A stretch of 6,383 nucleotides of DNA from NCBI GenBank assembly GCA_002780065.1, contig PEWQ01000102.1, forward strand, positions 1-6,383. Reading direction: 5' to 3'. The notes under the pieces were generated by a model, which saw nothing but the letters and a program-made list of their open reading frames with translations, ran no database searches and was not told the DNA's origin. Position 1 is the stretch's first letter; every line of letters begins with the position of its first letter. Source of the DNA: Candidatus Hydrogenedentes bacterium CG07_land_8_20_14_0_80_42_17 (GTDB taxonomy: Bacteria > UBA8481). Made by a program: the position numbers and the translations under genes. Below are positions 2,137-6,365 of the stretch, piece after piece.

Positions 2137-3447
2137 ATGGAAAAAAAATTAACTTCTGTAGAGATCGGCAATAAGCGCAAAGAGTATTTGCTTCCTTCGA
2201 CAATGACATATTATCGCAATCCCGTAACTATAGTAAAAGGGGAGATGCAGTATGTTTATGACGACAAAGGGAAAAAATATATCGATGCGTTTTCCGCGGT
2301 CGTTACTATTTCCGTCGGGCATTGTCATCCTGAAGTTCTCGATCGTGCGATCGCTCAGATGAAAGAACTCCAGCACATGACTACGCTCTACTATCATCCT
2401 AAAATTGTGCAATACGCCGAGAAGATGGCGAAAGTTGCAAATAACGCGAATCCTGATCTCAAGGTTTCGTTCTTTACGAATTCGGGTTCAGAAGCGACCG
2501 AACTTGCCGCTCTACTTGCGAAGAACTACACGGGCACTCACGAATTCGTAGCGCTCAGGCATTCATTTCACGGAAGAACTTTGATGGCGATGACGCTTAC
2601 AGGCCAATCGCTCTGGCGCCATTCACTTCCTTATGTATTTGGAGTTCATCATATTCCTGCAGGATACACGTATCGAAAACCCGAGCAGATGACGGATGAT
2701 CAGTTTGTCGATTACTGCGCGCGTGAACTTGAAGAAGTGATTAAATATCAAACGTGCGGAAAGATCGCGGCATTGATTGCAGAGCCTATTCAGGGCTTTG
2801 GCGGCGTTATTTGCCCTCCACCAAATTACTTCAAACGAATTTATGATGTTGTAAAAAAATATGGCGGACTCTTTATTTCGGATGAGGTGCAGACCGGGTT
2901 TGGAAGAACAGGCGACAAATTCTTTGGAATTGAGCATTGGGGAGTCAAGCCCGATATCATCACAATGGCGAAGGGAATCGGAAACGGCATTCCGCTTGGA
3001 GGAATTATCACCACATCTGAAATTGCAAAATCGATGACTGGAAAGGTTCACTTCAATACTTATGGCGGCAATCCTGTTTCAATGGCGCAGGGCGAAGCTG
3101 TGCTCGATGTAATCGAGAAGTATAAATATGCGGAGAATGCTCGGGTTGTCGGACAAGAGATCGTAAATGGAATGAAGAAACTTATGGAAAAATATTCAGT
3201 CATCGGTGAAGTGCGCGGCAAAGGATTGATGCTTGGAGTAGAGCTAGTTAAGAATCCTGAGACGAAAGAACCGGCGCCTCAGTTGACGCTCGACATAATG
3301 GAAGAAGCAAAGAATGAAGGAGTGCTTTTAGGAAAGGGAGCAATGGCAGGGAATGTAATTCGAATCAAGCCGCCGCTTTGCACTACAATTGAGGACGCTA
3401 AAACCATCGTATCAGTATTCGAAATTGCATTGAAGAGAGCGATGTAG
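2137..3447 (+). CDS. Class III PLP aminotransferase, AGXT2/beta-alanine type
   Basis: Cytosolic PLP-dependent aminotransferase of fold type I, class III (ornithine/GABA/AGXT2 group), 436 aa, full length for the family. Seen: VVTISVGHCHPEV near the N-terminus (55-67), typical of AGXT2-like enzymes; the phosphate-binding NSGSEA (115-120); HSFHGRT (142-148); EPIQGFGG (216-223); the cofactor-ring Asp in DEVQTGFGRTG (D249); Schiff-base lysine K279 in MAKGIGNGIPLGG; FNTYGGNP (306-313); and the late IRIKPPL arginine (R409). An AAGAGGTG ribosome binding site ends 5 nt before the ATG. AGXT2-type enzymes move the amino group of beta-alanine, 3-aminoisobutyrate or alanine onto pyruvate or glyoxylate. 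Beside a nucleobase permease the best inference is the last step of reductive pyrimidine breakdown (beta-alanine to malonate semialdehyde). 4-Aminobutyrate or another omega-amino acid remains possible. The catalytic set looks intact. Confidence 0.92.
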   Translation: MEKKLTSVEIGNKRKEYLLPSTMTYYRNPVTIVKGEMQYVYDDKGKKYIDAFSAVVTISVGHCHPEVLDRAIAQMKELQHMTTLYYHPKIVQYAEKMAKVANNANPDLKVSFFTNSGSEATELAALLAKNYTGTHEFVALRHSFHGRTLMAMTLTGQSLWRHSLPYVFGVHHIPAGYTYRKPEQMTDDQFVDYCARELEEVIKYQTCGKIAALIAEPIQGFGGVICPPPNYFKRIYDVVKKYGGLFISDEVQTGFGRTGDKFFGIEHWGVKPDIITMAKGIGNGIPLGGIITTSEIAKSMTGKVHFNTYGGNPVSMAQGEAVLDVIEKYKYAENARVVGQEIVNGMKKLMEKYSVIGEVRGKGLMLGVELVKNPETKEPAPQLTLDIMEEAKNEGVLLGKGAMAGNVIRIKPPLCTTIEDAKTIVSVFEIALKRAM

Positions 3448-3524: not shown

Positions 3525-4007
3525 CTATACCTTTCTTGGTATGAGATCGCGTTTGAGATTGGATATTCTATCGAGAAAAACTCTTCCGTCGAGATGATCG
3601 ATTTCGTGTTGAACCGCAATTGCCTCGAGCCCGTCGCATATCCAAGCATGCATTCTTCCGTTGATATCTCGAGATGCAACCGTTACGGCTTCATATCGTT
3701 TTACATTACCGGTAAAATCGGGAATGGATAGGCATCCTTCTCTAACCAACTTTATGCCGCCTTCATGAACTATCATGGGATCGATAAGCGTCAACAGCCC
3801 GTGCCCTACTACACCGTGTTTTCTTGTGGCGTCAACTACAGCAACCCGCAAATCTACTCCTATTTGAGGTGCGGCGAGCCCAATACCATTTGTTGCATAA
3901 AGAGTATCGGCTAAATCGGCTAGAAGTTCTCTCACATTCGACAACGACACTGACCTGCAAATTTTGCGAAGCGCCGGATCAGGGTATAAAAGAATTGACT
4001 TAATCAG
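3525..4007 (-). CDS. def: Peptide deformylase, probable CTG start
   Basis: Removes the formyl group from the N-terminal methionine of nascent proteins, in the cytosol at the ribosome exit. All three metalloprotease motifs are present: GIGLAAPQIG (41-50), EGCLSIP (90-96) and QHEIDHLDG (133-141). They give metal ligands C92, H134 and H138, catalytic E135 and Q48. The first conventional start, GTG at 3950-3948, would remove the family's N-terminal strand. Translation upstream in the same frame reads IKSILLYPDPALRK, exactly the expected deformylase N-terminus, and no ATG, GTG or TTG lies between there and the in-frame stop at 4031-4029. I therefore place the start at CTG 4007-4005, giving 160 aa, a normal length. 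That CTG overlaps the TGA of the ACT gene (CTGA), with GGAG 11 nt upstream, so translational coupling is likely. ATT at 4004, or a base error hiding an ATG, are alternatives. Function is near certain; the start is about 0.7. Confidence 0.93.
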   Translation of the reverse strand: MIKSILLYPDPALRKICRSVSLSNVRELLADLADTLYATNGIGLAAPQIGVDLRVAVVDATRKHGVVGHGLLTLIDPMIVHEGGIKLVREGCLSIPDFTGNVKRYEAVTVASRDINGRMHAWICDGLEAIAVQHEIDHLDGRVFLDRISNLKRDLIPRKV

Positions 4008-4552
4008 AGTGTGACCGGCTCCATCGAGTTAATTCGAATATCGACATCAAGTTCTTCGCTCGTTCTTTTCAGTTCACGATTGAGCGCAATCATATCGATT
4101 TTACGAGTAGGCTTCGCCTCGACCAGCATTAAATAGATAGGCGTATTTTCTGTCGCAATAATTCGAGTCTCGATTGATATAATATTTATTCCAAAATCAA
4201 ACAGAACTTTAGAAGCGCGGTAAACTATTCCGGATTTATTGCCTCCGGAAATAGAAATGGAAAAAATCTCTCCGCTGTTGTTTGTATTTTTTTTATTTTC
4301 TGAAGCGTCTTCTATTTCATCGCAGTGAAGAATTAATTCGACTTCTTTTTTTAGCGGTTCCAGAGCATTCAGCAATGACTCAAGGCTTTTCTCTTCAGCA
4401 TGCGCTACTGCAAACAGCATCGAAAACCTGCCTGCAAGTATCGCCATTGTTGAATCTTCTATATCATATCCCTCATCGAAAAGAACTTTTGTTATTTTCG
4501 ATACGATGCCCGGACGATCCTTACCCGATGCCGTCAAAAAGAAACGCGTCAT
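4004..4552 (-). CDS. Double ACT-domain protein, GcvR-like
   Basis: A 182-aa protein made of two ACT domains, small-molecule-binding modules usually sensing amino acids. Domain 1 covers about residues 3-76 with the typical SGKDRPGIVSKI turn (9-20). A hydrophilic linker rich in Asp, Glu, Asn and Lys follows (about 78-95). Domain 2 covers about 96-175 and opens with the related GGNKSGIVYRASKVLFDFG turn (103-121). This is the architecture of GcvR, the glycine-cleavage regulator of enterobacteria, and of many uncharacterised ACT-ACT proteins. No DNA-binding or catalytic domain is present, so it probably acts through a partner; ligand and partner are unknown. Its stop overlaps the proposed def start by 4 nt, so the two are co-translated. 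The start ATG has only a weak purine-rich site (GAG) upstream. The GcvR name reflects architecture only, because no gcv genes are in view. Confidence 0.85.
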   Translation of the reverse strand: MTRFFLTASGKDRPGIVSKITKVLFDEGYDIEDSTMAILAGRFSMLFAVAHAEEKSLESLLNALEPLKKEVELILHCDEIEDASENKKNTNNSGEIFSISISGGNKSGIVYRASKVLFDFGINIISIETRIIATENTPIYLMLVEAKPTRKIDMIALNRELKRTSEELDVDIRINSMEPVTL

Positions 4553-4587
4553 ATTTTACTACTCATATTTTGGAATATCATTATTAC

Positions 4588-4615
4588 ATTATGCTGATTT
4601 TTTTTTGCAGCTCAA
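4588..4615 (-). promoter_or_regulatory. Candidate promoter for the ACT-def unit
   Basis: On the minus strand TTGAGC (4615-4610) and CATAAT (4593-4588) are separated by 16 nt. They match the sigma-70 consensus at 4/6 and 5/6 positions. Transcription would begin near 4581, about 30 nt before the ACT start codon. The surrounding DNA is very A/T-rich, which makes chance matches common, so this is tentative. Confidence 0.4.
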
Positions 4616-4645
4616 GATTTTTTTTCGTTTTAAGTAAAATAAGTC

Positions 4646-4673
4646 TTGCATAATAAAAATAAATGCGTATATT
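4646..4673 (+). promoter_or_regulatory. Candidate nusA promoter
   Basis: TTGCAT (4646-4651) and TATATT (4668-4673) are separated by 16 nt, a 3/6 and 5/6 match to sigma-70 boxes. A start near 4680 would place the whole hairpin at 4684-4735 inside the nusA leader of about 108 nt. The -35 match is poor. A promoter downstream of the hairpin, for example around TAAAAT at 4740-4745, is not excluded but has no visible -35 partner. Confidence 0.35.
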
Positions 4674-4683
4674 CAATTTAAAC

Positions 4684-4735
4684 CTCATAAAAAATAGAAG
4701 AGGGTGGAGCAAAAACTCCGCCCTCTTTTTATGAG
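4684..4735 (+). terminator. Intrinsic terminator in the nusA leader
   Basis: AGAGGGTGGAG (4699-4709) pairs with CTCCGCCCTCT (4716-4726) across 11 positions with one G-T wobble, around a CAAAAA loop. It is followed immediately by a T run (4726-4730), the classic intrinsic-terminator layout. Outside the core, CTCATAAAAA (4684-4693) is complementary to TTTTTATGAG (4726-4735), so the T run can also pair in an extended stem interrupted by a short 5' bulge. No + strand gene ends nearby: the closest, the aminotransferase, stops more than 1.2 kb upstream with two opposite-strand genes in between. The likely role is therefore attenuation within the nusA leader. A minus-strand role is less likely because nothing on that strand is transcribed into it except antisense to nusA. 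Confidence 0.85.
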
Positions 4736-4768
4736 CTAATAAAATTGCGTTATAGGAGAATTATCTTC

Positions 4769-4773
4769 GGGAG
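4769..4773 (+). promoter_or_regulatory. nusA ribosome binding site, unusually long spacing
   Basis: GGGAG lies 14 nt before the nusA ATG, longer than the usual 5-9. A second purine block, AGGAG at 4754-4758, is further still. Between GGGAG and the start sits a five-codon frame, ATG 4774 to TGA 4789-4791, whose stop overlaps the nusA start codon as ATGA. GGGAG could also lie in the loop region of a small ATCT/AGAT hairpin (4763-4775). The nusA start is still supported because the protein N-terminus aligns with the family from this Met. Confidence 0.45.
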
Positions 4774-4787
4774 ATGTATTCAGTTAT

Positions 4788-6365
4788 ATGAAACAGAAAA
4801 TAACCTCTTTACCGATATCAGAAGCTATTGAAGAGGTTTCAGCAGAGAAGGGATTCGACCAGTTGACACTTAAAACTGCAGTCGAGGAAGCAGTATCTCA
4901 AGCCTTTTGCAAACACTTTCAAGTGAACATGCCTGTCACTACTAAGTTGAACCAAAATGGAAAATTTTCAATTCAAGCGGCTAAGACAGTTGTTGAGCGT
5001 GTAGAGGATTCTCTGACAGAAATTGCTCAATCTGATCCAATTGCAAAAGATTATGGATTGGGTGATTCCGTGTATGTCGAAATTACCAGTTCGAGCATTG
5101 GCTCTAAGACCGAAAACATAACTGATGTTTTTGGCCGAATGGCGGCTTTGATTGCAAAACAGGTTATTAGGCAAAAGATGAGAGATGCCGAACGCAGGCT
5201 TATTTACGAGGAATACAAGGGCAGAGAAGGCGAACTGATTCACGGAAAAGTTCAGCGTGTAAGGAACGGCTCTCTGATTGTGGAACTGGGAAAGACCGAA
5301 GCTATATTGCCCCGGCGTGAAATTCCTGTGCGCGAAAAATACAAAGAGAATGAAAGAGTGAAAGCCGTGATCATTGAAGTCAGGCTTGGACCGAAAGGAC
5401 CTCAGATTATTCTTTCACGTTCGCATCCGTGGTTTCTGAATAGACTTTTTGAGATGGAGATTACGGAGGTTTTTGACAAGACAGTCGAGATCAAGGCGAT
5501 TGCCCGCGAAGCAGGTTTCCGATCGAAGGTTGCGGTTTCTTCGCGGGATTCAAACGTGGATCCGGTTGGAGCATGTGTCGGACAAAAAGGAATTAGAATT
5601 CAGACTATTGTCAGGGAACTTGGCGGCGAAAAGATCGATATTGTGAATTGGGTCGAAGAGCCGACGACGTTCATCAGAAATGCTTTGTCGCCTGCCGAGT
5701 GCGAGCGAGTAATTGTAAACGAAGCCACGAAGACTGCTGAGGTCATAGTTTCAGACGAGAATCTTTCGCTCGCAATCGGCAAGGACGGTCAGAACGCACG
5801 CCTTGCGGCGAAGCTGACGAATTGGAAGATCGATATTCATTCTAAGAGCGAGATATCAAAGGATGAGGCTGACAAGTTGTTGAAGATTGCTTTCGGAAGT
5901 ACTCCTGAAGAATTTTTCGCCAGCTTTAATATTGGACCTGAGACGGCTCCGATTCTTTCTGCCGCCGGCATAGTCGATATTGCTGAGCTTGCCAGAATCG
6001 ATGTTGCTCAGCTTGCCGAGCTAGTCGGTCCGGCTCCGGCGATAATTATTTCTGACGAGGCGAGAAAACGTTGGGAGGAATATAAGAGCCAGATATCTGA
6101 TATTGCAGAGCCTGAAGATTTTGATAAGAAATTAAAGAAGAGAAAGAAGAAGAGAGAAAAAGGCGAAGAGGTAGTTATCGTAGAACCGTTTGCTCTTCCA
6201 AATGGTCAAACAGTTTCGAGTGAAAAAGAACTTGTGTCTGTACTTGATGAATTACCTGGAGAGGAACTAGAGTCTTTACTTATGTCGGATCAGTTGAAAG
6301 AATGGATGCAAAATATAGGTATGAAGCCGGAATCAATTGCGGAACTTATGGCGAGATACAGATAG
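4788..6365 (+). CDS. nusA: Transcription termination/antitermination factor NusA
   Basis: Binds RNA polymerase and nascent RNA, promotes pausing and intrinsic termination, and takes part in rRNA antitermination. The protein has 525 aa. Domains in order: N-terminal RNAP-binding domain (about 1-140), S1 domain (about 146-210, from GELIHGKV), KH1 (about 228-300) with VGQKG at 264-268, and KH2 (about 305-372) with IGKDGQNARLA at 330-340. The family hallmarks AREAGFRSKVAV (239-250) and DPVGACVGQKGIR (258-270) are clear. After KH2 a helical region at about 376-435 resembles the helix-hairpin-helix C-terminal repeats seen in several NusA families. A strongly basic stretch follows (447-458, mostly Lys/Arg), then an acidic helical tail ending at 525. 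It stands first in its unit, without rimP directly upstream, and is followed at once by a Shine-Dalgarno-like sequence for another gene. The leader terminator suggests autoregulated expression. Confidence 0.97.
   Translation: MKQKITSLPISEAIEEVSAEKGFDQLTLKTAVEEAVSQAFCKHFQVNMPVTTKLNQNGKFSIQAAKTVVERVEDSLTEIAQSDPIAKDYGLGDSVYVEITSSSIGSKTENITDVFGRMAALIAKQVIRQKMRDAERRLIYEEYKGREGELIHGKVQRVRNGSLIVELGKTEAILPRREIPVREKYKENERVKAVIIEVRLGPKGPQIILSRSHPWFLNRLFEMEITEVFDKTVEIKAIAREAGFRSKVAVSSRDSNVDPVGACVGQKGIRIQTIVRELGGEKIDIVNWVEEPTTFIRNALSPAECERVIVNEATKTAEVIVSDENLSLAIGKDGQNARLAAKLTNWKIDIHSKSEISKDEADKLLKIAFGSTPEEFFASFNIGPETAPILSAAGIVDIAELARIDVAQLAELVGPAPAIIISDEARKRWEEYKSQISDIAEPEDFDKKLKKRKKKREKGEEVVIVEPFALPNGQTVSSEKELVSVLDELPGEELESLLMSDQLKEWMQNIGMKPESIAELMARYR

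Follow-up and report, generated by a model that had tools for sequence, protein, structure and literature searches.

What does a strong terminator hairpin do in the leader of nusA, and which signal would govern it? We examined this question in a window of 6,383 nt, the whole of contig C7 (PEWQ01000102.1) in the assembly of Candidatus Hydrogenedentes bacterium CG07_land_8_20_14_0_80_42_17 (2.39 Mb in 207 contigs; 87% complete).

Genes and promoter of the nusA leader

The genes and the candidate promoter around the leader are as follows.

3525-3950, - strand: peptide deformylase gene
4004-4552, - strand: gene for an ACT-domain protein, divergent from nusA
4646-4673, + strand: putative nusA promoter, read from the sequence (TTGCAT at 4646-4651, a 16-nt spacer, TATATT at 4668-4673)
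4788-6365, + strand: nusA, 525 aa, with NusA_N, S1 and KH domains; first gene past the leader

A common region of 235 nt separates nusA from the divergent ACT-domain gene. The putative promoter is weak by consensus, with matches at 3 of the 6 positions of its -35 element, though plausible, and it was missed by a promoter scan with a stricter cut-off. We infer that nusA transcription starts near 4680. Many other leaders, too, have promoter-like pairs ~10-40 nt 5' of their hairpins. At the contig end, positions 1-69 hold an A/T-rich imperfect inverted repeat whose 33-nt arms are 76% complementary.

The sequence-only reading of this locus had held that no + strand gene ends upstream that would need a terminator. 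This claim was borne out: because the divergent ACT-domain gene lies there, the hairpin has no recognisable + strand gene ending 5' of it, and the + strand ORFs that do end there (4282-4653, 123 aa, and 4506-4637) are short, lie for the most part antisense to the ACT gene and matched no Pfam family. It is scarcely credible that the hairpin is the ordinary 3' terminator of an upstream + strand transcript or acts bidirectionally to block antisense transcription. It is almost symmetric, with an 11.7-bit match on the opposite strand to the covariance model described below (R1), and the 123-aa ORF ends at 4653, but that ORF is the largely antisense one without a family match, and the upstream genes are divergent both in the window and in the related genome G001.

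A stable hairpin ending in a U-tract

Two further features occupy the leader itself.

4697-4728, + strand: intrinsic terminator hairpin of the rimP-leader type, core GGTGG/CCGCC, from its fold, its R1 match and its conservation in G001
4726-4730, + strand: U-tract, from the sequence; the 3' end of a short leader RNA is expected near 4730-4735

The arms GAAGAGGGTGGAG (4697-4709) and CTCCGCCCTCTTT (4716-4728) enclose a 6-nt loop, CAAAAA (4710-4715), and are predicted to form 13 bp with a free energy of -22.3 kcal/mol; UUAUG lies 3' of the stem. The surrounding 65-nt stretch folds at -28 kcal/mol, compared to a mean of -8.9 for shuffled sequences (z -8.4; equalled in 0 of 200 shuffles). From 4735 to the nusA ATG at 4788 there are 52 nt. 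Both the fold relative to shuffles and the gene layout thus agree with the earlier claim of a strong terminator hairpin and U-tract between a plausible promoter and nusA. A simple terminator scan did not list the hairpin at 4697-4728, probably because its stem runs into the T-run. A repeat or mobile element was also considered and set aside, as a search of the window's own genome found no second copy of the element.

Conservation in a second genome of the phylum

Comparison within the phylum was with one other genome, Candidatus Hydrogenedentota bacterium J006 (G001; RFFU01000027.1), whose NusA is 54% identical to that of the window. The G001 nusA leader carries GAGGGTGGGG..CCCCCGCCC (full stretch AGAGGGTGGGGAAAACCCCCGCCCTTTTT). 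Local alignment of the two intergenic regions gave a score of 33 at the hairpin, which was reached in 0 of 3000 shuffles (extreme-value p ~2e-4), and nothing else of note aligned; local alignment was used in place of MAFFT, whose alignments of the two leaders displaced the stems by two bases. Likewise, a whole-genome search with the pattern GAGGGTGGN(3-10)CCGCCCT, which was derived from the two copies, gave a single hit per genome, in the nusA leader both times. Loss of the hairpin in relatives, which the sequence-only reading had named as evidence against its proposal, was looked for in G001, where the hairpin is retained in the nusA leader.

The ORF upstream of nusA in G001 also points away from nusA, and infB comes after nusA; the window's contig stops before the position where infB would follow. 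In G001 the terminator lies some 170-220 nt from nusA, according to which start codon is chosen. In the same G001 locus (L010, ~3127-3137, - strand), GAGGGTGGAGC is repeated shortly 5' of the nusA GTG start (3120), in the same letters as the 5' arm of the window's terminator. This second copy could have a Shine-Dalgarno role and might compete for the 3' arm of the terminator.

Assignment to the rimP-leader class

In the rimP-leader of Naville and Gautheret (2010; PMC2965389), a terminator hairpin whose stem has the conserved motif GGGc..gCCC precedes rimP-nusA-infB. The authors saw no antiterminator in it and suggested NusA as its ligand, or alternatively RimP. We scanned rimP leaders of 30 families from other lineages, most of which showed (A)AAGTGGG..CCCACTTTT 40-140 nt 5' of the RimP domain. 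The covariance model R1 was built from 26 of these rimP leaders, with the window and G001 left out. Compensatory changes were found at 6 of its 9 pairs; conservation of the core is partly due to selection, in that the sequences were picked by the core pattern. When applied to 17 held-out rimP leaders, R1 found a sense-strand element of at least 15.9 bits in 13. The sequence-only reading had proposed to look for covariation in the stem across related genomes; the stem is kept in G001, and the compensatory changes come from the rimP leaders of other lineages.

The top R1 match in the window is the hairpin itself (4697-4733; 19.3 bits; E 0.002), and across the whole G001 genome the nusA leader ranks first (26 bits). 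Because R1, built without both sequences, picks the window hairpin and the G001 leader first, the window hairpin is, by its sequence, an attenuator of the rimP-leader type, a class that is already known and occurs very widely. Several other hairpins in the window's own genome reach R1 scores as high as 19.3 bits, so the score alone would not identify the window hairpin, which is identified by its position and conservation. Its stem core, GTGGAG/CTCCGC, is one pair off GTGGG; the core is GTGGGG/CCCCGC in G001 and usually GTGGGC. The U-G pair (GTGG/CCGC) of the window and G001 also occurs in the rimP leaders of G012, G029 and G043, and the A-U pair that replaces G-C in the window is also found in G045. 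Nearly all leaders examined retain a T-rich tail directly 3' of the stem.

An Rfam scan of the window returned solely sub-threshold, terminator-like resemblances. RF01770 (rimP), which exceeded its gathering cut-off in one control genome alone, had no match at the hairpin site when searched in the window's genome and in G001. Weak resemblances to small RNA families were among these hits, and any stop at 4730 gives a short RNA, as would be expected if an independent small RNA were encoded between the divergent genes and ended at this terminator, with a separate nusA promoter downstream of 4735. We consider such a small RNA very unlikely, since the resemblances are far under gathering scores and terminator-like only, and since the element precedes nusA or rimP across many lineages.

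The strongest R1 match in the window's genome (24.4 bits) is a hairpin at another locus (L102 1480-1590; G000:C10 ~7662-7708), where a promoter-like TATAAT is followed by GAGCGGG..CCCGCTC and a T-run, with a glycosyltransferase ORF ~40 nt further on and the previous gene ~600 nt back. This hairpin is possibly another start-proximal leader terminator.

Hairpins directly before nusA in genomes without detectable RimP

RimP_N (PF02576) was undetected in the window's genome and in G001 by a search that was positive in 145 of 193 genomes and that may miss diverged RimP. We examined the nusA leaders of a further 34 genomes, none of which had a RimP match, and in 19 of them a sense-strand R1 match of at least 15.9 bits lay directly 5' of nusA (16 of 23 genomes in one survey, plus G013, G049 and G005). 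The distance from match to NusA domain, 18-110 nt in 18 of the 19 and 178 nt in G049, is too short for a rimP gene between hairpin and nusA. Beyond these, matches as strong in the 23-genome survey were limited to the same hairpins read on the antisense strand and a single match ~480 nt 5' of nusA (G154).

Several matches were set aside: one in G031 on the wrong strand, a loopless one in L022, and those in G014 and G154, which lie ~440-480 nt 5' of nusA, far enough for an undetected rimP to intervene. The loci of the last two (L086 920-961 and L130 489-523, respectively; one family) have strong rimP-leader hairpins, no RimP match and room for a strongly diverged rimP.

The presence of the hairpin directly before nusA in 19 of 34 RimP-less genomes implies, on these sequence matches, that the element tracks nusA rather than rimP. 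This pattern makes NusA a better candidate than RimP for the conserved effector, although a diverged RimP could escape the Pfam model. The hairpin stands directly on nusA here and in many other lineages because rimP, with which the operon usually begins, is missing or undetected. On a NusA tree the RimP-less genomes were spread, with at least 13 changes of state, of which the well-supported (starred) branches of this poorly resolved tree force just 2.

Additional pairings in the leader RNA

Two candidate elements could pair with parts of the terminator.

4680-4687, + strand: AAACCTCA, common to the G001 leader and lying between the -10 element and the hairpin in both genomes
4684-4735, + strand: outer helix CTCATAA/TTATGAG around the terminator in the full-length RNA (4684-4690 with 4729-4735), predicted fold

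Pairing of the U-tract with an upstream A-run, which the sequence-only reading thought would alter the strength of the stem, is half confirmed. The complementarity is real, with 4684-4693 matching the reverse complement of 4726-4735 at every position, and the predicted fold places a 7-bp outer helix across a 6-nt bulge. Conservation fails: the outer helix is absent from the G001 nusA leader, and pairing of the A-run beyond the main stem is probably incidental. The U-tract is wholly paired in the predicted full-length fold, as it would be if the element were no terminator and instead a stable 5' UTR hairpin, active in a 20-bp form that includes the outer helix, that protects the mRNA or shapes translation. 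This role is extremely unlikely in view of G001, which lacks the outer helix, and of the T-rich tail that nearly all leaders keep after the stem.

A word as long as AAACCTCA was shared in 25 of 5000 shuffles. Its CCUC (4683-4686) and GAGG (4700-4703), which lies in the 5' arm of the terminator, are predicted to be able to pair, and the predicted fold of the nascent RNA has -4.1 kcal/mol in the window and -8.1 in G001. From these two sequences, the CCUC-GAGG pairing is a possible weak antiterminator. An RNA switch of this kind, NusG or growth-linked pausing could each supply the signal, in place of NusA, to an attenuator of the rimP-leader class. We judge a signal other than NusA to be unlikely: CCUC is common to both phylum genomes and can reach the terminator arm, but it is seen in just two sequences, its pairing is weak relative to the -22 kcal/mol of the terminator, and the general rimP-leader has no antiterminator according to Naville and Gautheret (PMC2965389).

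Proposed control by NusA

Because the hairpin is conserved in G001 and matches R1, which was made without it, there is good sequence-level support for its role as an attenuator in the nusA leader. We think it likely that this hairpin is a terminator of the rimP-leader class behind the nusA promoter, that NusA stimulates it, and that it provides negative feedback on nusA. Among mechanisms, control by NusA has the best support and is probable, by analogy and because the hairpin stays on nusA where RimP is undetected. In E. coli, NusA represses its own operon and feedback has been reported (PMC6511841). NusA-stimulated termination in the B. subtilis nusA operon leader, and autoregulation, are reported in PMC12288461.

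RNA polymerase would start near 4680, and the hairpin would form within ~50 nt, at the very 5' end of the transcript. Polymerase would then either stop near 4730-4735, freeing a short leader RNA, or continue into nusA. By stimulating termination at the hairpin, high NusA would lower its own expression. Termination at the hairpin in the cell is what we infer, and the stem is so stable that it might occur even without NusA.

Comparison with known systems and significance

The description of the rimP-leader left undecided whether RimP or NusA is sensed (PMC2965389), and RimP-less lineages with the hairpin directly before nusA, the window included, separate these two candidates by comparison; their nusA leaders are minimal, at ~50 nt. 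There is perhaps an even chance that the so-called rimP-leader is properly a NusA leader: a pan-bacterial terminator for autoregulation, retained by nusA even in lineages where rimP is undetected. If so, NusA and not RimP would be the conserved effector, and the element, of which Rfam covers the gammaproteobacterial form only, would be among the most widespread protein-sensing leaders. In this phylum the NusA leader may also carry the CCUC antiterminator. These comparisons suggest that a broad RNA family for the rimP-leader-type element is missing from Rfam, whose RF01770 the window does not match.

The window element belongs to a known class in a nusA-first layout. Like the rimP-leader (PMC2965389), it is a short G-rich/C-rich terminator hairpin with a T-stretch in the 5' UTR of the nusA/infB operon, and its 52 nt falls within the 4-130 nt that separate rimP-leaders from their first gene. 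Unlike the rimP-leader, it has nusA first, with RimP undetected, and its stem is longer and more stable; its core, GGTGGAG, has U-G and A-U pairs where most have U-A and G-C. The E. coli metY-rimP-nusA-infB leader also places terminators ahead of an operon with reported NusA feedback (PMC6511841), but it is longer than the window's leader, has metY and tandem terminators, and scores 14.7 bits with R1. The B. subtilis attenuator, as reported in PMC12288461, is likewise a leader terminator upstream of nusA with proposed negative feedback by NusA; that leader stands before rimP (ylxS; PMC2965389), in contrast to the window, and its NusA dependence is reported from experiments, whereas that of the window would follow by analogy.
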